Program-made: the position numbers and the translations under genes
Source: Allocoprobacillus halotolerans
Lineage (GTDB): Bacteria; Bacillota_I; Bacilli_A; Erysipelotrichales; Coprobacillaceae
DNA: 64,000 nt
NCBI RefSeq assembly: GCF_024399475.1
Contig: NZ_CP101620.1
Coordinates: 2,089,608 to 2,153,607, forward strand
Direction of reading: 5' to 3'
Part shown: positions 2,507 through 61,395 of the stretch, in pieces
Layout of the letters: each line of letters begins with the position of its first letter
How positions within the stretch are numbered: position 1 is the first letter of the stretch
The notes under the pieces: generated by a model
Told to the model about the DNA's origin: nothing
The model's input: only the letters and a program-made list of their open reading frames with translations
Databases searched by the model: none

Positions 2507-4363
2507 ATGCTTGAAGTTCAACATATTTCCAAACGTTATCATTATCAAAAGGTGTTAAATGATATTTCTTTATGTTTTCCAAAAGCAGGTATCGTCGCAA
2601 TCGTTGGACCAAGTGGTTGTGGGAAAACAACATTATTACATATTTTGGGTGGTATTGATCGTGATTTTCAAGGTGAACTGTTGTGGAATGGACGTTCAGT
2701 GAAACATCGTTTGACACGTTATCGTCGTCGCCACATCAGTTTTATTTTTCAACAATTTCATTTGATTATGTGGCTATCATTAAAACAAAATATCAGTTTG
2801 CCTCGTTTTTTTCATAAACAGGAAAAGGCCGATTTCGCTTTAGAAATGGATGCATTGAAACAACAATCATTAACTTCACTTTCAATGGGACAAAGACAAC
2901 GCTTGGCTTATTTACGAAGTCATTACCATCATAGTGATATTCTTTTGTGTGATGAACCAACCGGTTCACTTGATCCTCAATATGCCAAAGCAGTGATGGA
3001 ATTGTTGAAGAATGAAGCCAAACATCGTCTTGTCATTTTGGTATCTCATGATGAAAAATTAGTGAAAGAATATAGTGATGAAATTTATTATATGCAAGAT
3101 GGTGAAATTATCAATCATGATATTTTATCATCACAAAAACGTATCGAACATTTTCCTACAATTCATCATCAATATGTCTTTTCTCATATGCGCTTGGCAT
3201 TTGCTTCCTTATGGTCCCATAAAGGGCGTTCTTTACAACTTATCATGGGTTTGCTTTTGTCTTTGTTATGTATTGTGACGGCTCTGACTTTAACACGCCA
3301 TCTTGAAGAACAGTTTCATCAATATATTTATTCACTTGTACCAGCATCTGGAATTAGTTTTCAATCTCGTTATCAACAATCACTCTCATTGGAATTGTTA
3401 GATCAAATGCAAAATCAAGCAGGTATTATCAAAAGTGAAATGTTTTTAGATGATTATGAATGTTTAGGTATTGGTTTTGAATCTGATCATTATGAACAAT
3501 CTCAAACACTATTTATTGGTGATGATACATCGCCCTATACTTATCTCTCATTACAATATGGACAATATCCTCAAGCCAATAATGAGATTCTTTTATCATT
3601 ATCAACAGCTAGACATCTTTATGGTGAGCAGGATGTATCGTCTTTAATTGGACAAAATGTTTATGCCTGGTATCAACATGACTGGGAAGTGAAAGGTATC
3701 TGTTATAAAATTGTTGGTATTACCAATCAAACAACCACATTAGATACACTTTATCAGATGAATCATGCCTATATTCATCTTTTAAAAGATGTCTATACTT
3801 ATGATGTGAATCAGGTTACTTCACATCTAGGAATTCTCTATGTCCATCCAGATTATCAAAGAGAAGATGTCATCAAACAACTACAAAAACAATATCCTGA
3901 TTATGAGTTTATGGAAATTGGAAAATCAACAACCCAGAATGTTTCAAAGACTCTTGAACAGGTAAATATGATTTTAGCTATTTTTTCTTTATTGGCTATT
4001 TTATCTTCTTTATTTTTGATAGGTGAAGTAATGTTTTTGAATGTTGTACAAAAGAAAAAGGATTTAGCAATTATGAAATGTTTTGGAGCCAGTTCTTTGG
4101 ACATTATGAAAATTGTTTTTTATGAATCTTTACAGATTTTGTTTATCGCACAAAGCTCATGTCTGATTTTATATTATCAGATTATTCAAATTTTGAATAC
4201 TTTTATGAAAGATGTCTTTGGAAGTGAAATGTTTTCTTTGCAGATGGATATGTATGTTGTAGGGGTCGTTTTTGTGTTATGTGCCTTATTGGTTTTTATC
4301 AGTCAATGCCCACCGCTCTTTTATATTTTAAAAATGAATACCGTACAAGCTTTAAAAGAATAA
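2507..4363 (+). CDS. ABC transporter, fused ATP-binding and FtsX-like permease protein
   Basis: This is an intact 618-residue protein. The N-terminal ATPase has Walker A (GPSGCGKTT), a signature variant LSMGQ, Walker B (LLCDEPTGSLD) and a switch histidine (LVSHD). From about residue 245 there is a membrane helix, a large extracytoplasmic domain, then three helices near residues 485-610, as in MacB/FtsX permeases. The order ATPase-then-permease in one chain is less common than the split form. It begins one base after the previous gene stops and is translationally coupled to it (GGAGGAATAGGATG). Together they look like a half-and-half exporter. Confidence 0.85.
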   Translation: MLEVQHISKRYHYQKVLNDISLCFPKAGIVAIVGPSGCGKTTLLHILGGIDRDFQGELLWNGRSVKHRLTRYRRRHISFIFQQFHLIMWLSLKQNISLPRFFHKQEKADFALEMDALKQQSLTSLSMGQRQRLAYLRSHYHHSDILLCDEPTGSLDPQYAKAVMELLKNEAKHRLVILVSHDEKLVKEYSDEIYYMQDGEIINHDILSSQKRIEHFPTIHHQYVFSHMRLAFASLWSHKGRSLQLIMGLLLSLLCIVTALTLTRHLEEQFHQYIYSLVPASGISFQSRYQQSLSLELLDQMQNQAGIIKSEMFLDDYECLGIGFESDHYEQSQTLFIGDDTSPYTYLSLQYGQYPQANNEILLSLSTARHLYGEQDVSSLIGQNVYAWYQHDWEVKGICYKIVGITNQTTTLDTLYQMNHAYIHLLKDVYTYDVNQVTSHLGILYVHPDYQREDVIKQLQKQYPDYEFMEIGKSTTQNVSKTLEQVNMILAIFSLLAILSSLFLIGEVMFLNVVQKKKDLAIMKCFGASSLDIMKIVFYESLQILFIAQSSCLILYYQIIQILNTFMKDVFGSEMFSLQMDMYVVGVVFVLCALLVFISQCPPLFYILKMNTVQALKE

Positions 4364-4413
4364 AGAAAAACTTGTTTTTCATCAAAAAGTTAGTTATAAT
4401 ATTACCGTTAATA

Positions 4414-45337: not shown

Positions 45338-45462
45338 ATTTTATGCCTCCTAATGCTCATATTCTAACAAATTTCAAAACATATGACAATAAGAATATTG
45401 TGTGAATGTTTGGGCTTGTTTCAAGATAATGTTTCTTTTATAATAAAAATGAGGTGGAATTC

Positions 45463-46008
45463 ATGAACGAACACGATTCAACACGATATCTTTTTGCACA
45501 AAGTATTAAAGATTTAATGGCAAAACAATCATTAGATAAAATGACAGTTACAGATATTGTCAAACATAGTGGTATGACAAGACAAACTTTTTATCGTTAT
45601 TTTAAGGACAAATATGATTTGGTCAATTGGTATTTTGAAAAACTGGCAGATAAGTCTTTTCGTCAAATTGGAAATTCTTCAACTTTACGTGAAGGATTGA
45701 TTAAAAAGTTTACTTTTTTATTAAATGATAAAATCTTTTTTATGCAGGCTTTTCAATCTAAAGATTATAATAATGTTGAAAACTACGATTATCAATGTAT
45801 TTTAGAGTTTTATCAAAATATTATTCATAAAAAGATAGGAGAGATTCCAACAGATATTATGTTTCTATTAGAAATGTATTGTCATGGTTCAATTACAATG
45901 ACTGTGGAATGGGCAATATCAGGAATGACAAAGACACCTGAAGAAATGGCAGATTTGTTGATTGCAGCCTTGCCGCCTAAGTTAGAACAACTTTTATCTG
46001 ATTTGTAA
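45463..46008 (+). CDS. TetR/AcrR-family regulator (DhaS-like)
   Basis: A 181-residue regulator with an N-terminal helix-turn-helix (MTVTDIVKHSGMTRQTFYRYFKDKYDL) and the TetR_C_8-like C-terminus common in DhaS-type regulators (TMTVEWAISGMTKTPEEMADLL). ATG 45463 follows GAGGTGG. Its gene is upstream of, and separate from, the dehydrogenase at 46132. Confidence 0.88.
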   Translation: MNEHDSTRYLFAQSIKDLMAKQSLDKMTVTDIVKHSGMTRQTFYRYFKDKYDLVNWYFEKLADKSFRQIGNSSTLREGLIKKFTFLLNDKIFFMQAFQSKDYNNVENYDYQCILEFYQNIIHKKIGEIPTDIMFLLEMYCHGSITMTVEWAISGMTKTPEEMADLLIAALPPKLEQLLSDL

Positions 46009-46028: not shown

Positions 46029-46131
46029 ATATAGAATATATTGAATTAATTATTTTGATATATTTACTTTTTCAATAATGCATTTGATAAATTGCTAGCC
46101 ATATAGTAAAATATTATTTGGGAGTGAGAGT

Positions 46132-47088
46132 ATGAATGTTTTAATGTTAGCACCTTTAAGAGAAGAAAATTTTCGTAAAATTGAAGAAGCTTTTCCAGAT
46201 TTTCATTTTACTTACAGCAAGAGGATAGATGTTACACAAGAAATGATTGATAATAATGATATTATTGTTGGAAATCCACCATTTTTTGTTGATTTCAATA
46301 AAAGCCATCTTAAAGCTATTCTTTTAAATAGTGCTGGTAGTGATGAATATGTGAGAAAGGGATTGTTACATCCTCAAACGATCCTTGTTAATGCTAGTGG
46401 AACATATGGTAAAGCTATTGCTGAACATACGATTGGTATGATTTTAGCACTAAATAAGAATATAAAAACATATGTTAAACAGATGAATGAACATTTATGG
46501 CAAGTTGTACCTACGGGTAAAGAAATCTATCAAAGCTGTGTCGTTATTGTTGGTTTAGGGGATTTAGGTTATGAATTAGCAAAAAGATTAAAAGCTTTTG
46601 AATGTCATATCATTGGTATAAAGAGGACAAAATCTGATTTATTACCTTGTGTTGATGAAATATATACAACTGAATACTTGGATAAAGTATTACCACAAGC
46701 TGATTTTGTGATATCAACATTACCTCAAACAAAAGAAACGATTCATTTATTTAATAAAGAAAAGTTTTTAAAAATGAAGAAAGATGCTGTATTTGTAAAT
46801 GTAGGAAGAGGAAGTGCAGTTGATACAAATGATTTAATGGAAGTCTTGGATCAAGGACATTTGTATGGTGTTGCATTAGATGTTTTAGAACAGGAACCAT
46901 TATCTTTATATCATCATTTATGGGATTATGGCAATGTTATTATTACTCCACATGCTTCTGGTGGTTATGTATGGGAAAGTACAAGACAATATTATACTGA
47001 TTTAGTTATAAGAAATATCAAACATTTATTAAATAATGAAGAATTAGAAAATGAAGTTGATTTTGAAACAGGTTATCGAAAAAAGTAG
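46132..47088 (+). CDS. D-2-hydroxyacid dehydrogenase family protein
   Basis: A 318-residue NAD(P)-dependent dehydrogenase: the nucleotide motif VIVGLGDLGYELAKRLK, the catalytic arginine in VNVGRGSAVD, Glu in LEQEPLS and His in ITPHASGG. Family members reduce 2-oxoacids such as phenylpyruvate, hydroxypyruvate or glyoxylate. ATG 46132 follows GGGAGTGAG. A terminator ends the gene, and the group II intron sits directly behind it. Confidence 0.9.
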   Translation: MNVLMLAPLREENFRKIEEAFPDFHFTYSKRIDVTQEMIDNNDIIVGNPPFFVDFNKSHLKAILLNSAGSDEYVRKGLLHPQTILVNASGTYGKAIAEHTIGMILALNKNIKTYVKQMNEHLWQVVPTGKEIYQSCVVIVGLGDLGYELAKRLKAFECHIIGIKRTKSDLLPCVDEIYTTEYLDKVLPQADFVISTLPQTKETIHLFNKEKFLKMKKDAVFVNVGRGSAVDTNDLMEVLDQGHLYGVALDVLEQEPLSLYHHLWDYGNVIITPHASGGYVWESTRQYYTDLVIRNIKHLLNNEELENEVDFETGYRKK

Positions 47089-47090
47089 TA

Positions 47091-47123
47091 AAAAAATGAC
47101 AAGTGACCATGCTTGTCATTTTT
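47091..47123 (+). terminator. Terminator used as group II intron target
   Basis: AAAAATGACAAG (47092-47102) pairs with CTTGTCATTTTT (47112-47123). The intron begins about 4 bases after the T-run. Confidence 0.88.
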
Positions 47124-47613
47124 CTTTGTATGCCGGGCATGGCATATATCTAGGTGGTGAAAGTCCACTGTGGGGGCGATGTCGCAACTGCCAACCACTA
47201 GCCAATATCAAGGGTGTCTATCGTGAGATGGAATCTGAAAGAAGATGGAGGCAAAGTCCTGGTCCGAGGAACACGAATCACATCAGGCATATAATAGGGA
47301 CGAGTGTGCAAAACAACACGAAGTCATAAGAGGTTGCGGAATAGGACTATTATATGTAAATGTGGCGGATATATGGGAGGAAAGAGATATGACCTTATCC
47401 CGGGAGGTCTCACTAGCGATACAGCAGTAACAACGAATAGTGAGAAGTCAGCAGAAGTCGTAGTAGTAAGGAAGTGACTGTAATGGTCATGGAGCGAAGG
47501 ACTGAATAAATCTATCAGTTATTGAATTTTGAATTGATTTCATTATACGAAACCGTGGAGATAGACGAGTACACTAGAAGACCCGAAAGAAGAATGTAGG
47601 GAAGGTGAGTATA

Positions 47614-48930
47614 ATGGATAGCGAAAGAAATGGAGGTAACGAAAATATGAAAACTGATAACACATTGCTTGAGGAAATGCTTAGTGATACTAATCTAGAA
47701 CTAGCATTTACACAAGTCAAACGAAACAAAGGTGCAAGTGGAGTAGATGGAATGGAAGTAGCTGAACTTAAAGACTATTTAGATAAACATCTAGAAGAAA
47801 TTAAGGACAGTATACGAAACAAGACATATAAGCCACAACCTGTGAGAAGAGTAGAAATACCCAAACCCGATGGCGGAATACGAAATCTAGGAGTGCCAAC
47901 AGTACTTGATAGATTTGTCCAACAAGCCATAGCCCAAGTGTTAATACCTATCTATGAACCAATATTCAGTGACAATAGTTTTGGATTTAGACCAAATAGA
48001 TGTTGCGAAATGGCAATCATCAAAGCATTGGAATATATGAATGAAGGCTATCAGTGGATAGTAGATATAGACCTAGAAAAGTTCTTTGATACAGTTAATC
48101 ATGATAAACTTATTTCACTTGTCATGAAAGATGTAAAGAGTGGAGAAATAGTATCCCTAATTAGGAAATATCTAGTAAGCGGGATTATGATTGATAATGA
48201 ATATAAAGAGTCAGTCGTAGGAACACCACAAGGTGGAAATCTAAGTCCGCTACTCAGTAACATAGTTCTCAATGAACTAGATAAGGAAATGGAAGCACGA
48301 GGACTAAGATTCACACGATATGCAGATGATTGTATTATATTAGTGGGTAGCAGTAAAGCCGCCGATAGAGTAATGGAAAACATTAGTAAATTCATAGAAA
48401 AGAAACTAGGACTTAAAGTAAATATGACTAAAAGTAAAGTTTCCAAACCTAATGATATTAAATATCTAGGATTTGGATTCTATTATGACTCTTTTTCATC
48501 TATGTGGAAAGCAAAACCACATGAGAAATCTATCGCAACACTGCAAACAAAACTAAGGAGACTAACAAATAGAAGTTGGTCAGTATCGTGGGAATATAGA
48601 ATACTTAAGATAAGACAACTTGTAAATGGGTGGATTAACTATTACCGTATTGGAAATTTTATAAAAGTCTGTAGAAAACTAGATGCACAAATAAGATTTA
48701 GGATACGTATGTACTTATGGAAGAAATGGAAAACCATAGGAAATAGAGAAAAGCAACTAAGAAAGTTAGGGGCATTACCATGGCAAGCTAAAACTTGGGC
48801 AAACAGTCGAAAATCATATGCAAGATGTGCAAGTACATTTCTTCAAACAAGAATAACTAATGATTTATTATATAGAAAAGGACTACCATCAATGGTAGCC
48901 CAATATCAGTTAAAACATATTTCAGTATAG
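47614..48930 (+). CDS. ltrA: Group II intron reverse transcriptase/maturase
   Basis: A 438-residue protein from ATG 47614 (GGTGAG upstream). The RT domain has FGFRPNR, IVDIDLEKFFDTVNHD, GTPQGGNLSPLLSN and the catalytic YADDC. The thumb/X maturase domain follows (VNGWINYYRIGNF). No HNH endonuclease domain is present, which fits class C elements. The protein appears intact. Confidence 0.95.
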   Translation: MDSERNGGNENMKTDNTLLEEMLSDTNLELAFTQVKRNKGASGVDGMEVAELKDYLDKHLEEIKDSIRNKTYKPQPVRRVEIPKPDGGIRNLGVPTVLDRFVQQAIAQVLIPIYEPIFSDNSFGFRPNRCCEMAIIKALEYMNEGYQWIVDIDLEKFFDTVNHDKLISLVMKDVKSGEIVSLIRKYLVSGIMIDNEYKESVVGTPQGGNLSPLLSNIVLNELDKEMEARGLRFTRYADDCIILVGSSKAADRVMENISKFIEKKLGLKVNMTKSKVSKPNDIKYLGFGFYYDSFSSMWKAKPHEKSIATLQTKLRRLTNRSWSVSWEYRILKIRQLVNGWINYYRIGNFIKVCRKLDAQIRFRIRMYLWKKWKTIGNREKQLRKLGALPWQAKTWANSRKSYARCASTFLQTRITNDLLYRKGLPSMVAQYQLKHISV

Positions 48931-48936
48931 ATTTAA

Positions 48937-48968
48937 ACCGCCGTATGCCGAACGGCACGTACGGTGGT
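48937..48968 (+). ncRNA. Group II intron domain V
   Basis: The hairpin ACCGCCGTA / TACGGTGGT encloses a second short stem (GCCG / CGGC), as in domain V. It is followed by GTGAGAGG and a domain VI hairpin (AAAATAAATA / TTATTTATTTT). Confidence 0.85.
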
Positions 48969-49008
48969 GTGAGAGGTCGAAAATAAATATAAAATTATTT
49001 ATTTTCTC

Positions 49009-49781
49009 CTACTCGATTTCATACCTATTGTAATATTCTAAAGCAATCATATTTGATAGTAACTGGAATAAGATGGTTGAGGAAGAATAGTTGTAATTTG
49101 TATCTAATATAATATTTTTATAAACAAATTTACTCTTTTTTAATTGATTCGTAGTTACAAAATATATTTTAGGATAATGGTTTTTATCTAGGATCCTGAT
49201 TCTTGGTAAGATGATATCAAAAAAGTATCCTCTAGCTGAAAAGATGATGATCAGATCATTTTCATTAGCATTAACGATCGTATCTTTGATTTGAACTGCA
49301 TCTGTTGTACAATAGACAAATTTACGTAAAGATGCGAGATCATCTTGAAGATTCATTAAGATATGTCCTGATTGCATCATACCTAAAAATGAAACTTTTT
49401 CATATCTATGAATGTCATGGACTAATTCTAGGATGATCTTTATATCAATATTTTGATTAAATTGATTGATTTTATCTGTAACACTTTTAACATAGTCACG
49501 AAGATCATGACTATTTTGATGTTGATAGTGAAATTTATGTTCTGTTAATGAAACATAACTCTTTATTAAAATTTGTAAATCTAAAAAATCTTGTAAACCA
49601 ATACATCTACAAAAACGACTTACTGATGCTTTGGATACATTACATGCTTTTGCAATTGAAGTCACAGAAAAGTTTTCACGTGACCCTAGATGGTTAAGAA
49701 TGTAATGAGCAATAATATAATTAGTACTTCCTTTTTTTCTTTGTCTATAACCGCAAATAACAGCATTAATATATATCCCAT
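49009..49781 (-). CDS. RpiR-family regulator next to the beta-glucoside locus (one frameshift)
   Basis: ATG 49781 follows AGAGAGGAAC; one G appears missing right after the start (ATGGGG expected), giving MGIYINAVICGYRQRKKGSTNYIIAHYILNHLG and then the helix-turn-helix VTSIAKACNVSKASVSRFCRC. The SIS-like domain (VSFLGMMQSGHILMN) follows. The last codons lie in the group II intron's 3' end: YYNRYEIE-stop, where the uninterrupted gene would read YYNRYEKEK-stop. It is divergent from the 6-phospho-beta-glucosidase gene and likely controls it. Confidence 0.82.
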
Positions 49782-49942
49782 TGTTGTTCCTCTCTTATTA
49801 TAAATTGATTCCTATATTATATTATAGCGTCTTATTATTTTTTGTATCAATGTTTCATAAATTGAAACGATAACACTACTTATGAAATAAACAAATATAT
49901 TCAATAGAATCATTTATAATGGGGGTCAGAAAGGAGGAACTT

Positions 49943-51393
<1,451 letters not shown>

Positions 51394-51402
51394 AAGGGAA
51401 AT

Positions 51403-52689
51403 ATGAGAATGGAAAAATTTACAGAAATTTTTACAAAAATAGCTGCTAAGATTTCTACTAATAAATATTTAGTTGCTATTAGAGATGGTTTGATGGCTTT
51501 AATGCCTATGTTGATCGTTGGTTCTATTGGAACATTACTTGGTTCGGTTGTTTTTTCAACAAATGGTCTAGCTCAAATCAAGGGGTTAGAATTTTTACAA
51601 AATTATTCACAGGTTTTCTTGAAACTAGCAAATAGTACAACTGATATTTTAGCTTTACTTGCAGCTTTTTCTATAGGTAGAGCTTATGCAAAGAACTTTA
51701 AATCTGAAGGATTTTTAGAAGGGGTTCTTGCGGTTGTATGTTTCTTGATCGTTTCACCAAATACATTAAATGTTGTTGTCGATGATAAGAGTCAAGTTGT
51801 TGCTGGAGTTTTATCAACGAATGTTATTAATTCTAGAGGATTGTTTGTAGCAATGATCGCAAGTGTTGCCTGCGTAGCAGCTTATAGTCATCTTGTGAAA
51901 ATTGATAAATTAAAAATCAAATTACCTGATAGTGTTCCACCAAACGTAGCAGGAGCATTTACAGTTATTATTCCTACTTCAATCGTATGTATCGCAACAA
52001 CTTTATTTGCAGCTATTTTTGAAGGATTAGTAGGTTCTAATATGGCTGATTTTATTTATAGTGTATTACAAGCTCCTATTCAAGCAGCTTTCCAACATCC
52101 ACTTGGAATTTTGATCGTAGTATTCTTTGCAGGATTATTCTGGTTCTTAGGTGTTCATGGTTCTTCATTAGCAATGACGATCGTTGGTCCTATTATGTAC
52201 GCTTCTTTACAAGTCAATATGAGTGCATTTGCGAATGGTCAACCAGTTACTGAGATTGTTACTTACCCATTCTGGAATTTATTTGCAACAATGGGTGGAT
52301 TTGGATGTACTTTGGGATTGATTGCAGCAATCTTTATTGTTGGTAAAAAAGAAGAAGATAAAGCTATTGCTAAGTTATCATTGCCTGCAGGTATTTTTGG
52401 AATCAATGAACCTATGATTTTTGGATTGCCAATTGTTATGAACCCTATTATTGCAATACCATTTATCTTAACACCAATTGTAACATGTATTATTGGATAC
52501 TTAGCAATGTATTTAGGAATATGTTCTAAGTTTGTATCAGCAGTTCCATGGGTCGTACCTCCTTGTCTTAATGGTTTTATAGCAACCGGTGGAGATATAA
52601 GGATGGCTCTTGTTCAAGCAGTTTGTTTAGTTGTATCAACATTGATTTATATCCCATTTGTAAAAATTAGAAATAATGTTGATAAGTAG
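51403..52689 (+). CDS. PTS lichenan/cellobiose-type IIC permease
   Basis: A 428-residue membrane protein of the lactose/cellobiose IIC family. Start at ATG 51403 or 51409, after AGAAGGG. Motifs include LMPMLIVGSIGTLLGS, the substrate loop FLGVHGSSLAM and GINEPMIFGLPIVMNP with the phosphorylation-transfer region. The IIB fragment at 56624 is of the same family; no IIA gene is seen. It begins 9 bases after the glucosidase. Confidence 0.92.
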   Translation: MRMEKFTEIFTKIAAKISTNKYLVAIRDGLMALMPMLIVGSIGTLLGSVVFSTNGLAQIKGLEFLQNYSQVFLKLANSTTDILALLAAFSIGRAYAKNFKSEGFLEGVLAVVCFLIVSPNTLNVVVDDKSQVVAGVLSTNVINSRGLFVAMIASVACVAAYSHLVKIDKLKIKLPDSVPPNVAGAFTVIIPTSIVCIATTLFAAIFEGLVGSNMADFIYSVLQAPIQAAFQHPLGILIVVFFAGLFWFLGVHGSSLAMTIVGPIMYASLQVNMSAFANGQPVTEIVTYPFWNLFATMGGFGCTLGLIAAIFIVGKKEEDKAIAKLSLPAGIFGINEPMIFGLPIVMNPIIAIPFILTPIVTCIIGYLAMYLGICSKFVSAVPWVVPPCLNGFIATGGDIRMALVQAVCLVVSTLIYIPFVKIRNNVDK

Positions 52690-52714
52690 AGGATGAGAAT
52701 TCATCCTTTTTTTG
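52690..52714 (+). terminator. Terminator after PTS IIC
   Basis: GGATGA / TCATCC stem followed by T7. Confidence 0.88.
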
Positions 52715-52758
52715 CATATATGTTCACTTAAAGCTGAAATAAAGTATAATAGATATAT

Positions 52759-52771
52759 ACTCCATAGGGGT
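52759..52771 (+). promoter_or_regulatory. Candidate copper-type operator upstream of the copA remnant
   Basis: ACTCC-ATA-GGGGT is a near-palindrome like the operators of copper exporters in Bacillota. TATAAT lies just upstream at 52744-52749. The regulator itself is not in the window. Confidence 0.4.
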
Positions 52772-52784
52772 GGGAAGTGTATAT

Positions 52785-52921
52785 GTGAAAAAGAAATTTG
52801 ATGTTATTGGCATGACTTGTAGTGCTCATGTTGATAAAGCAGTGAGAGGATTAGATGGAGTTCTTATTAGGAAACTAACATACATAATGATAGGAATTAG
52901 TGGATTGCTTAATCTTATTTA
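52785..52921 (+). pseudogene. Remnant of copper-transporting ATPase (heavy-metal-binding N-terminus)
   Basis: GTG 52785 begins MKKKFDVIGMTCSAHVDKAVRGLDGV, the heavy-metal-associated domain of CopA-type ATPases. It then jumps to LIRKLTYIMIGISGLLNLI and stops, so almost the whole ATPase is gone. The metal motif reads GMTCSAHV instead of the usual GMTCSACSAHV, which matches loss of one copy of a 9-base repeat (TGTAGTGCT). A hairpin terminator follows at 52925-52966, and 52967-53189 is AT-rich with no gene. Confidence 0.7.
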
Positions 52922-52924
52922 AAT

Positions 52925-52966
52925 GAAAAGACATCTTTCTTATTATATAAGAAATGATGTTTTTTC
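52925..52966 (+). terminator. Hairpin after the copA remnant
   Basis: GACATCTTTCTT / AAGAAATGATGT imperfect stem followed by T6. Confidence 0.65.
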
Positions 52967-54038
52967 ATTATTATGTTTGAGACTACTATAGTAATGATTA
53001 AAATATGATGAATAAGTATGGATGATTTCATATATCTATATATTGTTGATTTTTAAATATTATAGAAATTGTAAATGTTATTTTGAAATTAATGCTATTA
53101 ATATATATTTTTTGTAAATAGCATAATAGATTGTTGGGATAATATTTAACTTTTAAATAAACATGATAGACTTTACTTAAATTATAAGGGGTAGAGTAAA
53201 AAATCTATGAAAGTTTTACTCTTTGCAACTTTACAAAGTGTACGATGACTCTGGCAGGATGCATTTATTTGAAAATCTTTCTTTGTCTTTTTCCAAAATT
53301 TACGGACTGCCATCTTTCCAATAAAAAAGCCCATTTTTGGGCGCAATGAGGGTATCGTTTCTCACGTCATTTTTTTAAAAATGGTGAACTTTCTATGCTG
53401 CGTGATATTGTGAGCTGTACTCGATAAGTTGCAGCCATCTGTCAGGCATAAGCATATCCTTTTTGAACAGACCGTCATCAACAGGCGTCTTATAGTTCAG
53501 TGCTGAATGCCTTCTTAAGAAATTGAAGAAGCATACAAACAGGACCATATAACTATTTGCACATTCAAGCCTGTCATAGCCATTTGTTCCCTGATAGTTT
53601 TGCTTGTATGTCCTGTTGAGGCGCTCCTCAATCTGCTTGAAAGGTCTGTATTTCTGTGATTCCTCATCAAGATTCTTTACACCGATGACCTGATGCAGGT
53701 CAAACTTGATTCCATTGATTTCAAAGAAAACCTGTGCTGCATTATAGATTGGATTCCCATCTGTTATAAGAGTCATGTCATCTGGGATTTCACTGTAATG
53801 ACTTAGACACTCATAAATAGATGTACAGGCACATTTTGTATCTCTTACGGGATAAATTGTGTAAGAAGTGATGATCTTTGTCTTGGGATCAGACCAGAAG
53901 AACACGTAATGATTCTTGCCTCTTATCTTAATATAGGTTTCATCGCCGGACAATATGGAGCCAAGCCTGTATGGATACCTGTCAACAAGAGGCTTGACCA
54001 GACGTGATACATGGTACTATGTCAAGATTTCGGACAAC

Positions 54039-54960
54039 TTAAATTGCAGAATTTGTAATAAAAGTTGTTTGATTTTTGTTAGTCACTGCTAACATATAGT
54101 TTTTCTCGTATTCGTTGGGTGACTGATACCCACAATGTGAATGAATCCTTATTGTATTGTAGAATCCCTCTATGTATTCAAATACAAGTTGATATGCTTC
54201 TTCATAATTCATTATCTTATAAAAATTCAACCACTCCCTTTTGATTAATGCATGAAATGATTCTATACAGGCATTATCCCATGGTGTTCCTTTTCTTGAG
54301 TAACTTGTTACAAATCCTTCTGTCATCTCCTGATATTTAGTTGATGTGAACTGCACGCCCCTGTCACTTTGCACCACTAATGGTTTTTCTACCTTCCTTC
54401 TTTCCTTTGCCTTTTCAATACTTTTTAGAACTTCATCTGTTTCCATCGTTTTTGTCAGCACCCATGATATGATTTTTCTTGAGTATAGGTCCATGACGCT
54501 TGTCAAATAGACAAAGCCTTCATCAACTGTTCTTATATAAGTTATATCTGTACACCAGGCACAATCAGGTCTTGATGGATTAAAATGTCTATTGAGCAGA
54601 TTTTTAAGCCTTGAAGAGAAATCCTCACTTATTGTTGTTTGAACGTATGGCTTTACATATCTAGCCTTCCAGCTGTTTTCTCTCATGATGGAATAAATGT
54701 ATCTTTGACTGACTTTTTCACCATTTTGATTGAGCATCTCTGTTATTTTTGGTGAGCCATATATTTCATGAGAATTTCTATAAATTTCCTCAACTTTCTT
54801 TGTAATTTTTCTCTTCTTTGTTTTGTATAGCTTGGCTTTCTATTAATGTAATCATAATAACCTGATTTGCTGACATCTAACTGTTTTAGCACACTGGAAA
54901 TCGAAATTGTTGAATCTTTCTTTTTTGATTCTTTAACACTTTCGTAGATGTCCTTTTGGT
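54039..54960 (-). CDS. IS3-family OrfB transposase (one frameshift)
   Basis: An rve-type DDE integrase: D in WCTDITYI, D in VQSDRGVQFTS and E in NACIESFHALIKRE, with the IS150-like HTH_21 region before it (VLKQLDVSKSGYYDYINRK). A missing A near 54806 (A5 for A6) breaks the frame. Its beginning overlaps the end of orfA in the -1 frame at GGGAAAATAAA, so an OrfAB fusion by ribosomal frameshifting is likely, as in other IS3 elements. Confidence 0.88.
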
Positions 54961-55251
54961 TTATTTTCCCAGTATGCCAATAGCCTTTTTTAGGATTTCT
55001 AATGCATCCTTTGTATCTTTAAGTTCTTTTCTTAATTTGGCTATTTCCTTAGCTTCATCACTTGAATAATTTCCACTTCCTCTTATAATCACTTCATCAT
55101 TATTTTTCTTGTAACTTTTCATCCATCCACCAATCGTCGTATCATGAATTCCAAATCTTTTTGATACACTTACATATGATTCATCTGGATGATCTAAACA
55201 GTACTGAATCACTCCTTCTCTAAAATCTTTATCATAAGTATGTTTTGCCAT
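54961..55251 (-). CDS. IS3-family OrfA, helix-turn-helix protein
   Basis: A 96-residue protein with a transposase_8-type helix-turn-helix (ESYVSVSKRFGIHDTTIGGWMKSY) followed by a leucine-zipper coiled coil (AKLRKELKDTKDALEILKKA). ATG 55251 follows AGAGGAAG. It ends in LGK at the probable frameshift site into orfB. Confidence 0.9.
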   Translation of the reverse strand: MAKHTYDKDFREGVIQYCLDHPDESYVSVSKRFGIHDTTIGGWMKSYKKNNDEVIIRGSGNYSSDEAKEIAKLRKELKDTKDALEILKKAIGILGK

Positions 55252-56506
55252 ATGTTTCTTCCTCTCATTCTGTTTGTTTTATAATTCATATGACATTGTA
55301 CCATCAATGATTTTCTCTGTCATTTACCTTGTACAGTTTTTATTCTACCATCAACAGTTGTCGCATAGTTGATGACTGTCTGGTGTGATATTTTAAAGCC
55401 ATGGACTTCCCTGATGATCAGTGCAGTCTTTCTTGAAGAAAGACCATAGTTGACGTAATAGGTCAATGCCAATCCAAGGATTCTGTGATCAAAATGAATT
55501 CTTGAAAGATTGATAGGAGTTGTGATGTTTTCTTCAGCCTTTTTAAGATTGTCAAGATTGAACTTGAAGTCACGATAGTGATAGCGAAGCCTGTACTGAT
55601 TGCTTGAAGTCAGAAGGTGTTCTCCCTTTCCTTCATCGACAAGCTTTTTGTTTTTGATGTAATAGGGGCATTTCATGCTTGGGCATACAAAAACAAGATA
55701 TCCCTGGCGGTCGTGCTTCATATCAAGCTTTTTGCCACAATGAGGACAGAAGATGCCCGTTTCACCGGAAAGAGAGATCTTCAGGGAAAATGTCTGGCAG
55801 CATACCTTGCACATGAATTGACCGCGACCATTGTTGTCATAGATATATTCATGAGGAGCACCACAAAAAGGGCAGACACCCTTAAAGTCAAAATTATTGT
55901 TTCTTCTGTTGACAGGCTTGATAGGACGACCATCCTTTAATGCATTTCTAAGAATATCTTCAAAACTCAGCTGAACAGGTGCTTCCTTTTTGAAGACAGG
56001 AGGCTCGTCAATTTTAAAGTCGGCATAAGGAATGGTATGATCATTCTTATTGGATTTCTTTAATTTCTTAAACTCTTTTTTAAGAGTGGGATTGATGTAT
56101 TTATCAAAGAAATCAATCATCCAGTCGAGATGGATTGTCACCTGCTCAAGGTGATAAATAAAATCAGAGGAATTAAGATGATACTCAACAGAATGAGGGA
56201 TAGACTTTATCAACTGAAAGAAATCAATATATTTGGAAAACTTAAAGTTAGATTTAGAAAAAGAATTTAAATTATTTAAGATATGTGTTATAGTATTCAT
56301 GTGAAATATCCTTTCGTTAGATTTTGTGTAAAGAATACTATAACATGGATATTTCACTTTTTTAATACAAATTTTAGAGAAATAGTAAAAAAATAAGAAT
56401 ACAAATTATTATTAAAATAGAACAAATAAAACAAATCAAGAGTAGTGCATTTGTGTTGTCATATAGCAACTTTTGACACTACCTTATAAGGAAAGGGGAG
56501 ATAGTT

Positions 56507-56629
56507 ATGGAACTAAGAAAAGATTTTTTGGGGGTGGCGCTACGGCTGCTAACCAATATGAAGGCGGATATTTAGAAGGTGGTAAAGGTTTAAGTATTGC
56601 TGATGTAGAAAGAGGAGCAAGACATGGCA
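56507..56629 (+). pseudogene. N-terminal fragment of a second 6-phospho-beta-glucosidase
   Basis: ATG 56507 after AAAGGGGAG. Reading MELRKDFL, then with one T restored near 56527, WGGATAANQYEGGYLEGGKGLSIADVERGARHGI, the hallmark GH1 N-terminus. The similarity ends after about 42 residues, where the sequence turns into the start of a PTS IIB gene. About 440 residues are deleted, so it is non-functional. Confidence 0.8.
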
Positions 56630-56920
56630 TCAAATACTCTAAAAATATTATTATGTTGTACGTCAGGATTAACAACTTCTTATTTTGCATATTTAATGCA
56701 GGAAGCATTAAATCAAACTCATCATTGTGTAGATGTTGATGCTATTAATTATTTAGAATTGGATGCTATTCAAAATCAATATGACTGTATATTATTAGCA
56801 CCTCAAATTGATTATCATTATTGAGAATTAAGACAAAAATATGGTGAGAAGGTCATGATGATTGATACGATTGATTTTGCAAGCGGAAATGTAAATAGAC
56901 TATTAAAACAATTGATTTAA
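56624..56920 (+). pseudogene. PTS lactose/cellobiose-type IIB subunit with internal stop
   Basis: ATG 56624 (MASNTLKILLCCTSGLTTSYFAYLMQEAL) carries the phospho-cysteine P-loop of cellobiose IIB proteins (LLCCTSGLTTS). The frame meets a TGA at 56822-56824, after PQIDYHY, and then continues in the same frame as ELRQKYGEKVMMIDTIDFASGNVNRLLKQLI to 56920. The intact length (about 98 residues) is normal for IIB. The stop is a substitution rather than an indel. Its ribosome site AGGAG lies inside the glucosidase fragment. Confidence 0.75.
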
Positions 56921-57138
56921 TATTTAAAAGATGAAATTTAAAATTTATCTTTAAGCATGATATTATCAGTAATCTGAAATTCGTCAATTAAAGAATTCAT
57001 TTATTTAATAATGATTTATCTTTATTAGTGATGATAATGGATTGCTTTTTTAGTTGTAGTTGTGTCTTCAATATCATCAAATGTAAATAAAAAATATTAT
57101 CTAATAAAACGTCTGAATTTTTAACTAATGTTATCTGA

Positions 57139-57261
57139 TTTACTATATTGTGTATTTTATTTGCGATACTTGTATTACTTCACATAGAGGTATCCATAAC
57201 ATATATTGTTTTAGCTAGTTTATTTTTATGTGAATTTGTTTATATTTTGAAAAAACAATAG
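57139..57261 (+). pseudogene. Fragment of a membrane protein C-terminus
   Basis: A short open stretch (FTILCILFAILVLLHIEVSITY...FVYILKKQ) encodes two hydrophobic helices and a basic tail but has no start codon or ribosome site. It is probably the tail of a lost membrane-protein gene. Otherwise 56921-57410 is AT-rich with nothing I can identify. Confidence 0.3.
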
Positions 57262-57410
57262 AATATTTTAAATATTAGTCATTTTTCTTTCTTTGTTAGA
57301 TATGACTTTTGAAATTTGTTTAGGTACATAATTGTTATATAGACGTCAATCATATAAATGAAGTTTGTATATAACTTCTTCTCGTATAATATGTATAGAA
57401 GTTTGAATTA

Positions 57411-57463
57411 AGGATTTCTCTTTTTAAACAACTGAGATATCTCAGTTGTTTAAAAAATCCTTG
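57411..57463. repeat. Large palindrome upstream of the IS110-family element
   Basis: 57421-57456 is a perfect 36-base palindrome (two 18-base arms meeting at GAT|ATC), extended outward by AAGGATT (57411-) and AATCCTT (-57463). It can act as a bidirectional terminator or as a cruciform. No gene ends directly at it. Confidence 0.75.
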
Positions 57464-57646
57464 CTTCTACACTCTCTTTTAAGATAATAGTTTCGTTTTG
57501 AATCAAGGTTTTATTCTTTTCTCCTGCGGCCATCTTGTTATGTTCCACTTCTAAAAGACTTAATCCTCTGTTCAAGGCGTACTTTATACCCGAATGAGTT
57601 TGTTGCAGCAGTGTATTCTCACTTGTCTCCGCATTTACGAGGTTGC

Positions 57647-59241
57647 GTTTGTCTTGATTTAGAGGTGCAATTCAAAACCATTTACATACTTTAGAAAGAA
57701 GGTCATTTTTTATGAAAAATTACAATTACAATCTTTATGTTGGCATTGATGTCTCTAAAGGCAAGGCTGATGCTGCTGTTCTGGCTGTCCCTGAATTAAG
57801 ATCGGTCAAACCTCATTTCCTTAGAAAAAAATTATCTTTTAAGTTTATTAAATCTGAAGTTGTTGAGTTTTTAAATACTGTTAGAAAGTATTCCAGTGAT
57901 CAGTACTGTCTCCACACTTATTTTGCTTTGGAAGTCACTGGCATATATTCTACTAATATCTACACCTTTATTAAACAAAACTGTAATAGCGATGAAGAAA
58001 TCCATCAGCTTAATACGGATTTCGTTAATAAATGGAGAGAAAGCCATAATATATCTAAATCTGATCCTTTGGATGCTCAAACCATCTGTTCCATTATCGG
58101 TACTGATGATCAGGTCAAATATGTTTCAGATTCTGTTTTTGAAAACAAAAACGGATATCAAGATCTTAAGGCTCTCGTTCACAGACACTATCAGATTAAA
58201 AAACTCTATTCTCAGGAAACTAACCGTCTCATTGCCCTTTGTGATTGTTATTTCCCTGAACTTCAGTATGTTTTTGAACCTAAATCAGCTGCTTTCCTGG
58301 CTGTCTTATCTCAATATCCTACTTCGCATGATATCATAAATGCTTCCAAAAATGAAGTGTTTCATCTTGTTTACGAAGCAACTAAACATCGCTGCAGTAT
58401 GGATAAGATTGATAAGCTTTTCAATTATGCTCAGGATACACTGGTTCCACATGTATCCGATCATATGAGATATGTTATTTCCAACACTGTTGAAAGCATC
58501 ATCCATATTCGTACACAATTGAAACTGATTGAAAAAGATATCAGAAAGCTTGCTGCCACTTTTAATGTTTACAGTCTGCTGTTGACCATCACTGGCTGTG
58601 GTCCTTTGACTGCCGCTGTTATCATCGCTGAAACCGGAGACATCTTCAGATTCAAAAATGCTGATCATTATGTCTCTTACAGTGGTTCATCACCACGTAA
58701 CAAGCGTTCTGGCAAGTCTGTGGAAATCATGGGCAAGATTTCCAAGAAAGGCTCAAAATACCTGAGACACGCTCTTTACATGATTGCCGAATTTGCCAGA
58801 CGACATAATCCTGTTCTTAAACACTTATTTGAAAGAGTGAAGAACGGAAATAAAAAGCGTCATAAATTAGCGGTCATTGCAGTTGCCAATCGCATTGCCA
58901 GATATATCTATTCAATCATGAAAAACGAAAGCAGTTTTATAATCATGCATGAAAATATCATGCGATTACCAGAAGAAACCCGAAATACGTTCTTCAATTC
59001 AATATCTTTAGATTTTCCAAAGAATACCAGAAAACAGATTTATCAGTATTCTGATATCAATGGTGAAATCCATCGCTTTGTTTATAGGAACGAAGCAACG
59101 GAATCAGTAGCTTAAAAACAAAGAAAACCTAAAATGTAAGAGCTTTCAAACACTGGGTTTTGAGAAGTTGTTTTTAGTGCACCCAAAAATCCACTAAAAA
59201 CATCAAAGAACATCGGATTGCTCCTCTAAATCAGGACAAAC
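57647..59241 (+). mobile_element. IS110/IS1111-family element with 25-bp inverted repeats
   Basis: The transposase is bracketed by 57647-57671 and 59217-59241, which are inverted copies matching at 23 of 25 positions (GTTTGTCyTGATTTAGAGG...). Inverted repeats near the ends are a mark of the IS1111 subgroup; plain IS110 elements lack them. True ends may lie slightly outside. Non-coding flanks of 40 and 101 bases inside the repeats, plus the GC-rich 57520-57646 stretch, are candidate guide (bridge/seek) RNA sources. Confidence 0.75.
57712..59115 (+). CDS. IS110-family transposase (DEDD type)
   Basis: An intact 467-residue protein. ATG 57712 follows AGAAGG. The N-terminal RuvC-like DEDD domain shows YVGIDVSKGKADAAVLAV, a Glu in FALEVTGIYS and Asp residues in SKSDPLDAQTI. 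The C-terminal Transposase_20 domain has ITGCGPLTAAVIIAETGD, the catalytic-serine region SGSSPRNKRSGKS and KISKKGSKYLRHALY. Such enzymes use a short guide RNA encoded in the element's end. Confidence 0.93.
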   Translation: MKNYNYNLYVGIDVSKGKADAAVLAVPELRSVKPHFLRKKLSFKFIKSEVVEFLNTVRKYSSDQYCLHTYFALEVTGIYSTNIYTFIKQNCNSDEEIHQLNTDFVNKWRESHNISKSDPLDAQTICSIIGTDDQVKYVSDSVFENKNGYQDLKALVHRHYQIKKLYSQETNRLIALCDCYFPELQYVFEPKSAAFLAVLSQYPTSHDIINASKNEVFHLVYEATKHRCSMDKIDKLFNYAQDTLVPHVSDHMRYVISNTVESIIHIRTQLKLIEKDIRKLAATFNVYSLLLTITGCGPLTAAVIIAETGDIFRFKNADHYVSYSGSSPRNKRSGKSVEIMGKISKKGSKYLRHALYMIAEFARRHNPVLKHLFERVKNGNKKRHKLAVIAVANRIARYIYSIMKNESSFIIMHENIMRLPEETRNTFFNSISLDFPKNTRKQIYQYSDINGEIHRFVYRNEATESVA

Positions 59242-59481
59242 ACTATTAAAATCATTTTTTTAAATTAATTATTGACATTTAATAGTTTGTCTTTTTATTG
59301 ATGACAATTTTAAACAAATAATTACATAATATGTCTTATATCGAATAAAAATGATTATTTTTTGAAAAAAATCTACAAGAATATTATCATTTATCAAGCT
59401 ATATTTATAGTTCGACAAATTAAACATAAAGAATATTGTAAGTTTATATCCTATATTAAATATTTTAGGAGAAGTGTGTCT

Positions 59482-59657
59482 ATGAACAATATTCGTTTAC
59501 CTCCTTATTTTTCTTTTTTGGAAAATATACCAGGAAAAATATGAACTATAAAATTTATGATTATGCAAAGAATGATTTTAAAAGGCAATTAGACGACAGG
59601 GGAAATTTGAAATATTACATAAGAGTCAATAAAAAATTTATTGAGGTTACAAGATAA
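59482..59657 (+). CDS. Small protein of a conjugative-element remnant (one frameshift)
   Basis: ATG 59482 after AGGAGA: MNNIRLPPYFSFLENIPGK, then with one A restored near 59537, NMNYKIYDYAKNDFKRQLDDRGNLKYYIRVNKKFIEVTR. About 58 residues. No named family, but its position just before a sigma-like HTH gene suggests an accessory protein of a mobile element. 59242-59481 before it is AT-rich without a gene. Confidence 0.5.
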
Positions 59658-59684
59658 CAATATTTAGTTTGTTTTCGAAGCTAT

Positions 59685-60008
59685 ATGAAAATTAAATATG
59701 ACAGAAAGAGGGAAGTAGCAAGATCAGTCCAATATTTTGGAGATATTGATCAGGCTACTTCCTTTATTTTGTCCAAGACTACAACTTATTGTATAAATCA
59801 AATATACATAAAAGATTTAGTAAATCTTGCAATTCAAGAGATACATAAACTGCCTGATAAATATAAAGATATAGCAATCTGTATATTTCTGAATGAAATG
59901 ACTATTGCTGAAACATCTTTGAAATTAAGAATACCAAAATCTGCAATTTATGACAGAAAAATAAAAATACAAAAAATATTACAAGAAATTTTAAAAAAAT
60001 TCGGATAA
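59685..60008 (+). CDS. Sigma-70 region 4-like helix-turn-helix protein
   Basis: A 107-residue protein (MKIKYDRKREVARSVQYFGD...). The C-terminal half LPDKYKDIAICIFLNEMTIAETSLKLRIPKSAIYDRKIKIQK is a sigma-70 region 4 or ArpU-like helix-turn-helix. The ATG has no strong ribosome site and may not be the true start. Proteins like this accompany integrative conjugative elements of gut Bacillota and control excision or transfer genes. Confidence 0.6.
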   Translation: MKIKYDRKREVARSVQYFGDIDQATSFILSKTTTYCINQIYIKDLVNLAIQEIHKLPDKYKDIAICIFLNEMTIAETSLKLRIPKSAIYDRKIKIQKILQEILKKFG

Positions 60009-60068
60009 ATATTTTCAAGTTTCTGCGGCAAAGGGTGAAGGGACATTTCCATTAAGGAGCTAACTGAA

Positions 60069-60433
60069 ATGAAAGAATTAAAAGCATTTATTTATTGTAG
60101 AGTATTAGATGAAAAAGCAAGAAGTTTGCTTGACTATCAGGAAAAGAAATTAACTGAGTTATCACAATATCTTGATATGAAAGTCATAGCATGTGCCAAA
60201 GAAGTAGGTAGTTGGAAATATTTTGGTACTTTTGCTATACAAAAACTTATTCATCATATAGTTGTTGGAAAGATTGATGTTGTTCTCGTTTATGATGAAA
60301 CGAGATTAGCTATTTATGATGATTTCTATGCGAATTTCAAATGATATGTGATCAACATGATGTTGATATTCTTACAATCAATGATTTAAAATCAATGATT
60401 TTTGCAAATTCAATATTAAAATGCCATGACTAA
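60069..60433 (+). CDS. Serine-recombinase-like N-terminal domain protein, catalytic Ser missing (one frameshift)
   Basis: ATG 60069 follows AAGGAG. The sequence KAFIYCRVLDEKARSLLDYQEKKL matches the first strand and helix of serine recombinases (YCRVS...Q...L), but Leu stands where the nucleophile Ser should be. Later parts fit the fold (KIDVVLVYDETRLAI; DVDILTINDLKS). One base is missing near 60344 (FEMICDQHD expected). The corrected 122 residues lack a DNA-binding domain, so it is probably regulatory or structural rather than a recombinase. Confidence 0.6.
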
Positions 60434-60448
60434 CAATCATGGCTTTTT
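60423..60448 (+). terminator. Terminator after the recombinase-like gene
   Basis: GCCATGA / TCATGGC stem followed by T5, overlapping the stop codon. Confidence 0.85.
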
Positions 60449-60506
60449 GCGTTGCTATTGTAGAAGTCCACCATGATCTTCTTTTTCGAAGAAAAGGAGG
60501 TAAAAA

Positions 60507-60946
60507 ATGAGCTACAATTATGCAAAAGAATTAGCAAAATGGACAAAGTGGAAAGAACAGGAAGAACAATTATTAAGGTCATTGAATGTTGAAAAAATAT
60601 AATCAGTCAATTACATGAATATGATTGGGAAGCATTTAAAACAGACAGAAGAATAAGAAGAAAACAAAATGTAACATTAGACAGTTTGTTTTACAGTATT
60701 CCCTGTTATGACAAAAAAGATATTTTAACAGTTGAAGATTTATTAGATGAAATAGAAAATGAGGCATTGCTTCATTACTTATCTCAAACAGATTAAACAA
60801 CTTTAAATATTATTTTGATGAAGATGTTAGGTTATTCAACTAGAGAAATATCAGAAATATTGAAAATAAGTTCTTCAGCAATTTATGTTCGTATACATCG
60901 TTTGAAAAATAATTTAAAAAAATTACAAGATGATGTAAGAAAATAA
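60507..60946 (+). pseudogene. Sigma-70-like helix-turn-helix protein, frameshifted and with an internal stop
   Basis: ATG 60507 follows AAAGGAGG: MSYNYAKELAKWTKWKEQEEQLLRSLNVEK. One A is missing near 60596, restoring IISQLHEYDWEAFKTDRRIRRKQNV. An in-frame TAA at 60794-60796 (after SQTD) then interrupts the passage into TTLNIILMKMLGYSTREISEILKISSSAIYVRIHRLKNNLKK, a clear region 4-type helix-turn-helix. The stop looks like a real substitution (AAA or CAA to TAA). Together with 59685 this makes two sigma-like proteins around the recombinase-like gene. Confidence 0.6.
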
Positions 60947-60989
60947 TGATTGAAATGGACTATATAGTGTAAGGTTCAAAAAGACACCT

Positions 60990-61312
60990 AAAAAAGTACC
61001 TTGATAACTGAATAACAGCCATTGGATACGTTCCTGTTAAATGAGCCTTTCAACAAATACGCCATGACTATTAGACAATCTAGTAAGAGCGATGAAATAT
61101 TGAGTTGTAAAAATAGATCAGCACCTATTTGGCAATGATACTTAACAGCAATAATGATACTCCTGTTAATTCATAGTCCGAGCGTTAGAAGCGTCGCAGG
61201 CATTGATAGCAGTTGCATGAGAACCATGCGAGGGTGAGATTCCCGTGAGAACTTTGCTAGAATTCGTCTAAATGGTATCCCTTGTTTTTTGGGTGGTCAG
61301 CGACAAATAAAA
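60990..61312 (+). ncRNA. Candidate structured non-coding element of a conjugative-element remnant
   Basis: No open frame of note crosses this higher-GC block. It contains two related hairpins: TAACAG...CTGTTA at 61013-61039 and TTAACAG...CTGTTAA at 61142-61169, both with GATAC and TCC in the loop. A third hairpin GCATG/CATGC (61215-61229) is followed at once by GGG/CCC (61232-61244), and CCCTTG...TTTTTTGGG ends it near 61296. The block sits directly behind the sigma/recombinase module. Its function is not known to me. Confidence 0.5.
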
Positions 61313-61395
61313 AAACAATAACTGAGTGTAGAAGAAATATGCTCAGTTTTACATAATGAATTTGATAAAATGTTACAAACACTTTCATCTGTAAC

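Follow-up and report, generated by a model that had tools for sequence, protein, structure and literature searches.

canT of Tn916 is a cis-acting, orientation-specific, processive antiterminator, demonstrated in B. subtilis, that is essential for conjugation of the element and most likely works as RNA; it allows read-through of heterologous terminators, even three in series, in cis and without other genes of the element (PMC11658703). A 162-nt deletion inactivates canT, as does canT(S3), a change of ATA to TGC at nt 283–285 after the orf8 stop codon; in a 400-bp canT fragment the S3 change has little effect (PMC11658703). Its discoverers could not derive a structure from single-sequence folding, report that they did not pursue an analysis of its sequence and structure, and mention neither Rfam nor pemK (PMC11658703). 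Other processive antitermination RNAs include put of phage HK022, EAR of the B. subtilis eps operon, and conAn2 of pLS20, with conAn also requiring the protein ConAn1 (PMC11658703, PMC8955417). We liken these to the RNAs described here by antitermination function and claim no sequence relation.

The Rfam family RF02913 ("pemK RNA") is typed as a cis-regulator, and its model comprises only 61 positions, whereas the conserved element is about 260–300 nt long; Rfam 15 added three covarying pairs and left the model length at 61. Below we describe a block from Allocoprobacillus halotolerans that, judged by sequence homology, is a structured RNA of the same family as both Tn916 canT and Rfam "pemK". 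No publication connecting canT with RF02913 or pemK was found in the literature searched, coverage of which was incomplete. Antitermination by canT in Tn916 was already known; the present work adds a detailed structure and a probable function for the previously unexplained "pemK" RNA.

Homology of the block to RF02913 and canT

The block occupies positions 60990–61312 of a 64,000-nt stretch of the A. halotolerans chromosome (hereafter the window). A sequence-only reading had described it as non-coding and richer in GC than its surroundings, and both properties hold: GC content is 38.7%, versus 28.3% in the left flank and 23.8% in the right, and between 60344 and 61456 the ORF listing of the window has no entry of at least 60 aa. 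The 3' third of the block exceeds the gathering threshold of RF02913:

61151–61248, + strand: match to RF02913 "pemK RNA" (Rfam, 65.3 bits; gathering threshold, 34.8; E = 1.7e-9)

The complete RNA element in the window is longer, spanning about 61000 to 61276, or roughly 275 nt from a BoxA-like motif through a closing stem. Relative to RF02913, the full element adds helices P1–P4, two kink-turn-like junctions, and the BoxA-like motif.

DNA searches with the block covered the genome of the window itself and those of 97 relatives; 27 of these 98 gave matches. The host genome has four copies detectable with Rfam, of which the window copy scores highest. Plasmid pCF10 contains a Tn916-type element (L035) with tetM, the orf7 sigma factor, orf8, xis, and int, and an RF02913 match (4302–4402, 55.0 bits) lies between its orf8 and xis. 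The three bases changed in canT(S3) correspond to L035 4302–4304, that is, to model positions 1–3 of this match, and the first of them does not vary among the 35 relatives in the alignment; the inactivating 162-nt deletion takes out the whole RNA core. RNAs of the same type are also found in Tn1549-type (L036, vanB) and TndX-type (L037) elements. The presence of tetM on Tn916-like elements and of vanB on Tn1549-like ones lends the family some practical weight. Certain variants (L022, L030, L113, and the RNA of a second module in L184) lack the outer P5 stem and P6, fall below the gathering threshold, and hence were missed by Rfam.

The window copy and canT share a homologous core, an Rfam match at the S3 site, covarying P1, P2, and P5–P7 helices, a BoxA-like motif, and placement after a sigma-like gene. 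canT then precedes recombination genes; the window copy, in contrast, derives from a PemK-type module, has no xis or int behind it, stands before a chromosomal alcohol dehydrogenase (ADH) gene, and is a putative antiterminator. The comparison ties canT to an orphan Rfam family, suggesting a probable function for the "pemK" RNA, and provides canT with an evolutionarily supported structure.

Two side observations concern these searches. Tn916-type elements contain a second structured RNA in their control region, the Rfam SQ2397 cis-regulator of an HTH factor, located upstream of orf7 (L035 2853–3082). In addition, a contig labelled as a Methanomassiliicoccaceae archaeon (L062, from a metagenome-assembled genome) encodes the RNA together with a TndX-type recombinase, reflecting either a binning error or transfer into an archaeon.

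Covarying structure of the RNA

Homologues were gathered from genome and viral contigs with a core pattern, and pairing was evaluated in 36 non-redundant RNAs by an alignment-free test in which each 5' strand is matched against its own 3' partner and against 3' strands taken from the other RNAs. This test supports P1 (z = 10.3), P2 (z = 15.0), P3 (z = 7.3), and a kink-turn hairpin (z = 6.4), while P4 is not significant among the 36 RNAs (z = 1.1). The elements of the structure in the window are as follows:

60999–61013, + strand: BoxA-like motif CCTTGATAACTGAAT, of the kind found in rRNA leaders and spacers, at a fixed spacing upstream of P1
61018–61026 with 61267–61276, + strand: P1 closing helix; double changes in 6 of 7 pairs, 90.4% paired, with an irregularity in the window
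61034–61040 with 61142–61148, + strand: P2, CTGTTAA with TTAACAG; double changes in 9 of 10 pairs
61043–61047 with 61131–61138, + strand: putative kink-turn-like junction 1, GA-GCC strand with GGC-AAU-GA; a kink-turn by consensus
61051–61059 with 61098–61107, + strand: P3; double changes at 8 of 8 pairs
61060–61091, + strand: putative kink-turn-like junction 2, CGC-CAU-GA, hairpin 61069–61085, GA-GCG; C-stem 96% paired, hairpin covaries
61111–61116 with 61125–61130, + strand: P4 hairpin, the weakest helix, 65.5% paired
61163–61168 with 61207–61212, + strand: P5 domain enclosing AGTCCGAGCG...CGTCGCAGGC; double changes in 8 of 8 pairs, 100% paired
61214–61219 with 61225–61230, + strand: P6 hairpin, TGCATG/CATGCG with a GAGAA loop; covarying
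61232–61234 with 61242–61244, + strand: P7 hairpin, GGG-TGAGATT-CCC; covarying

Across an alignment of 35 sequences, 86.8% of the positions in a 65-pair structure form standard pairs, versus 67.2% in shuffled controls and 37–44% when the structure is slid along the alignment, a control that leans toward the structure because the structure was drawn from these same sequences. Double changes occur at 54 of the 65 pairs among the 35 relatives aligned, and the covariation score is 0.517, compared with 0.197 ± 0.008 after shuffling (35 sequences). RNAalifold, run without being given a structure, recovers P1, P2, P3, the C-stem, the P5 core, and P7, and adds a GCC/GGC helix. The window copy retains 62 of 67 pairs and 75 of 78 conserved positions. 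Folding of the block as a single sequence gives no excess stability over shuffled sequence (z = +0.71); the evidence for RNA structure is covariation, not free energy.

The sequence-only reading had proposed a duplicated GATAC hairpin. Both quoted sequences are present at the coordinates given (61013–61039 and 61142–61169), but as local hairpins they pair no better than strands taken from different RNAs (z = 0.9 and 0.4 among the 36 RNAs). Their strands belong to other helices: 61034–61040 pairs 100 nt away with 61142–61148 in P2, and 61163–61168 pairs with 61207–61212 in P5. The pairing test gives no support for regarding the two local hairpins as conserved or as forming a switch. Covariation, which that reading had suggested looking for, is extensive in the element, and the compact tail that it described fared better than the two hairpins, with the GCATG/CATGC and GGG/CCC pairs corresponding to covarying helices; a last CCC/GGG pair (about 61279–61293) falls outside the supported structure.

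The GCC/GGC helix added by RNAalifold points to a second kink-turn consensus on P2 (GA-GCC / GGC-AAU-GA), besides CGC-CAU-GA / GA-GCG. With C-stem, 3-nt bulge, tandem GA, and NC-stem all matching the consensus and the stems supported, we infer two kink-turns; the frequency of the CGC-CAU-GA / GA-GCG motif is partly selected, as the motif also served as a search anchor. In other bacteria, L7Ae-family proteins bind kink-turns. No such protein (PF01248) was matched in the host genome, ruling out YlxQ/YbxF as a kink-turn partner here.

Genomic context, BoxA, and the proposed antitermination

The sequence-only reading had offered an unverified impression that similar blocks occur in gut conjugative elements, which our survey of homologues and their contexts bears out. 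A tyrosine or serine recombinase is encoded within 3.5 kb downstream in 44 of the 55 non-redundant loci with enough downstream sequence (none was detected within this distance in the remaining 11), xis or PemK frequently intervenes before the recombinase, and a sigma- or Orf8-like gene lies upstream in 42 of the 67 loci with enough upstream sequence. Across many gut Firmicutes, the same RNA is thus found together with sigma-like regulators, excisionases, PemK toxins, and recombinases of both types. A complete PemK-type module occurs in the host genome itself (L184), encoding a sigma-like protein, a small resolvase-domain-like protein, a second sigma-like protein, the RNA, PemK, and a tyrosine integrase; a second, inverted sigma/resolvase-like/sigma/RNA/PemK/integrase module lies on the minus strand of the same contig (10010–13355).

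Several minor features were seen around the PemK-type copies. PemK/MazF-type toxin genes directly follow the RNA at L183 8214–8564 and L184 7733–8098, and we noticed no antitoxin-like ORF between the RNA and the toxin in either locus. In four PemK-type copies (L002, L003, L022, L030), a perfect hairpin just before the pemK ribosome site has a wholly different sequence in each. A terminator scan detected no classical terminator between the RNA and pemK or ADH, the hairpins there included.

These observations agree with the suggestion that the block is an RNA regulator, which is supported by the Rfam match, covariation, and homology to canT. We consider it probable that the block is a full-length, plus-strand member of a single RNA family, comprising Rfam "pemK RNA" and Tn916 canT, that carries out processive antitermination. 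Points that weigh against this view are the small effect of S3 in the 400-bp canT fragment, the canT fragment that is active with a truncated BoxA-like motif (see below), the lack of an L7Ae-family match in the host, the failure of the hairpins before pemK to score as terminators, and the 11 loci with no recombinase detected. By analogy with canT, the window copy would itself act as an antiterminator, and the same function is presumed for the PemK-type members. It is unlikely, in our estimation, that the RNA is instead an ordinary cis-regulatory leader, such as an attenuator or riboswitch that controls only the next gene by sensing a ligand or a protein such as PemK. A fixed short distance between the RNA and the next gene, the hairpin preceding pemK in PemK-type copies, and the Cis-reg typing by Rfam would all suit a leader. 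However, the genes behind the RNA are unrelated (xis, pemK, serine recombinases), the common factor being a recombination module, and the read-through of serial heterologous terminators by canT in the absence of other element genes (PMC11658703) speaks against such a leader.

In the processive antitermination model, transcription from the sigma-like genes would produce the RNA, which would fold as it emerges, with the two kink-turn-like junctions shaping it, and remain with RNA polymerase, making the polymerase resistant to terminators. One promoter could in this way drive the integration genes (xis/pemK–int) and, once the element has excised, also read across the joined ends into the transfer genes.

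The motif at the 5' end of the RNA suggests that host factors of rRNA antitermination (NusB/S10) assist. CCTTGATAACTGAATA stands immediately 5' of the RNA structure in the window, and 34 of 36 RNAs have a BoxA-like motif at either of two favoured distances, compared with 1.0 expected from shuffled flanks, using a search pattern chosen after inspection of the RNA set. The window motif matches the BoxA of the host rRNA operons, which have GGGACATTGAAAACTGAACAG in the leader and GGAACATTGAAAACTGAACAG in the spacer; comparable rrn motifs were found in 6 of 7 genomes checked, and 22 nt of one RNA (L023) are identical to rrn spacers of two genomes (G009 and G022). NusB is present in the host. NusB/S10 bound at BoxA may load or stabilise the antitermination complex, so that both BoxA and Nus factors would have a role in the window RNA. 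A strict requirement for BoxA is weakened by the active 452-bp canT fragment, which starts at +126, four bases inside the BoxA-like motif (+122 to +139), indicating that an intact BoxA was not needed in that reporter. Although BoxA-like motifs are common to rRNA operons and this family, no rRNA lies downstream here, and only this family has the large structured domain that follows BoxA. The motif suggests a testable link between canT-type RNAs and rRNA antitermination.

More broadly, orphan Rfam "pemK" could represent a class of processive antiterminator RNAs, spread across the Firmicutes on conjugative and integrative elements, that borrows the host rRNA BoxA beside a large two-kink-turn scaffold, with canT as its first tested member and PemK-type modules using the RNA in place of an xis leader; we regard this wider proposal as evenly balanced.

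A stranded copy at the edge of a mobile island

The sequence-only reading placed the block directly after a mobile-element control module, as is confirmed by relatives in L184 of the sigma-like and resolvase-domain genes upstream. The neighbouring features are as follows:

59685–60008, + strand: sigma-like regulator 1, 55% identical to the L184 module copy, with sigma-factor family matches
60069–60344, + strand: small resolvase-domain protein (PF00239), 53% identical to the L184 copy; 3' end out of frame relative to that copy, with similarity resuming in a different frame
60508–60945, + strand: sigma-like regulator 2, broken by a single frameshift and a single stop that relatives lack
61321–61347, + strand: hairpin ACTGAG...CTCAGT; no classical terminator by scan; PemK-type relatives have an unrelated perfect hairpin at this place

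The three upstream genes are 53–59% identical to the first three genes of the module, and the second and third are broken. Downstream of the RNA, PemK/xis and integrase are absent, and a gene for an iron-dependent ADH of the lactaldehyde reductase type follows. Of the canT-type placement between regulators and recombination genes, the window copy thus has the upstream half only. Lacking excisionase/PemK and integrase genes, and with two broken regulators upstream, the window copy is not part of an intact module but is stranded where a decayed mobile island ends.

In four congeners (G001–G004) the TetR gene (window 45454–46008) is directly followed by ADH, indicating that about 15.3 kb has been inserted in the window genome. 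This island (46075–61372), absent from the four congeners, has the RNA at its right edge, and its two ends (46075–46094 and 61353–61372) are marked by an imperfect 20-bp direct repeat. It also contains a 2-hydroxyacid dehydrogenase, a group II intron (47217–49017, reverse transcriptase ORF 47605–48930), an RpiR-type regulator, a broken 6-phospho-beta-glucosidase, a cellobiose-type PTS IIC, several IS elements, and the RNA module.

The position at an island edge flanked by this repeat could suggest a DNA element rather than an RNA, and a transfer origin or an att-type site had indeed been proposed from the sequence. We judge such an element very improbable, as the family covaries in the manner of single-stranded RNA, G-U pairs included, and canT acts in one orientation only. 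Moreover, the oriT of Tn916 lies elsewhere, near orf21 (PMC11658703), and the possibly att-like repeat copy at 61353–61372 is just outside the block and the RNA. The IS110 transposase gene nearby (57712–59115) raises the idea of a guide-type RNA of that or another transposon, which is scarcely credible: some 2 kb containing module genes separate the block from the IS110 gene, and the family accompanies sigma-like regulators and recombinases of integrative and conjugative elements in many genomes. The oriT, att, and IS110 guide RNA assignments were accordingly rejected on structure and context.

The ADH gene raises the further question of whether the window copy has been co-opted as an ADH leader and kept by selection. 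Its pairing is largely intact although the neighbouring protein genes are broken, and four genomes from a different genus also have copies linked to ADH. Yet a conserved promoter region belonging to ADH itself lies downstream of the RNA and is present also in the congeners without the RNA, and the other ADH-linked copies are decayed, three having lost 20–46 of the 78 conserved positions and the fourth having a large deletion, versus 3 positions lost in the window. Recent insertion, which would account for the intact state, is the simplest reading, and co-option is rather doubtful.

Finally, a CTATATAGTG-like motif is conserved right after the second sigma-like gene in the window (60969–60978) and in three PemK-type relatives (L002, L003, L030), where it could be a promoter for the second sigma-like factor.
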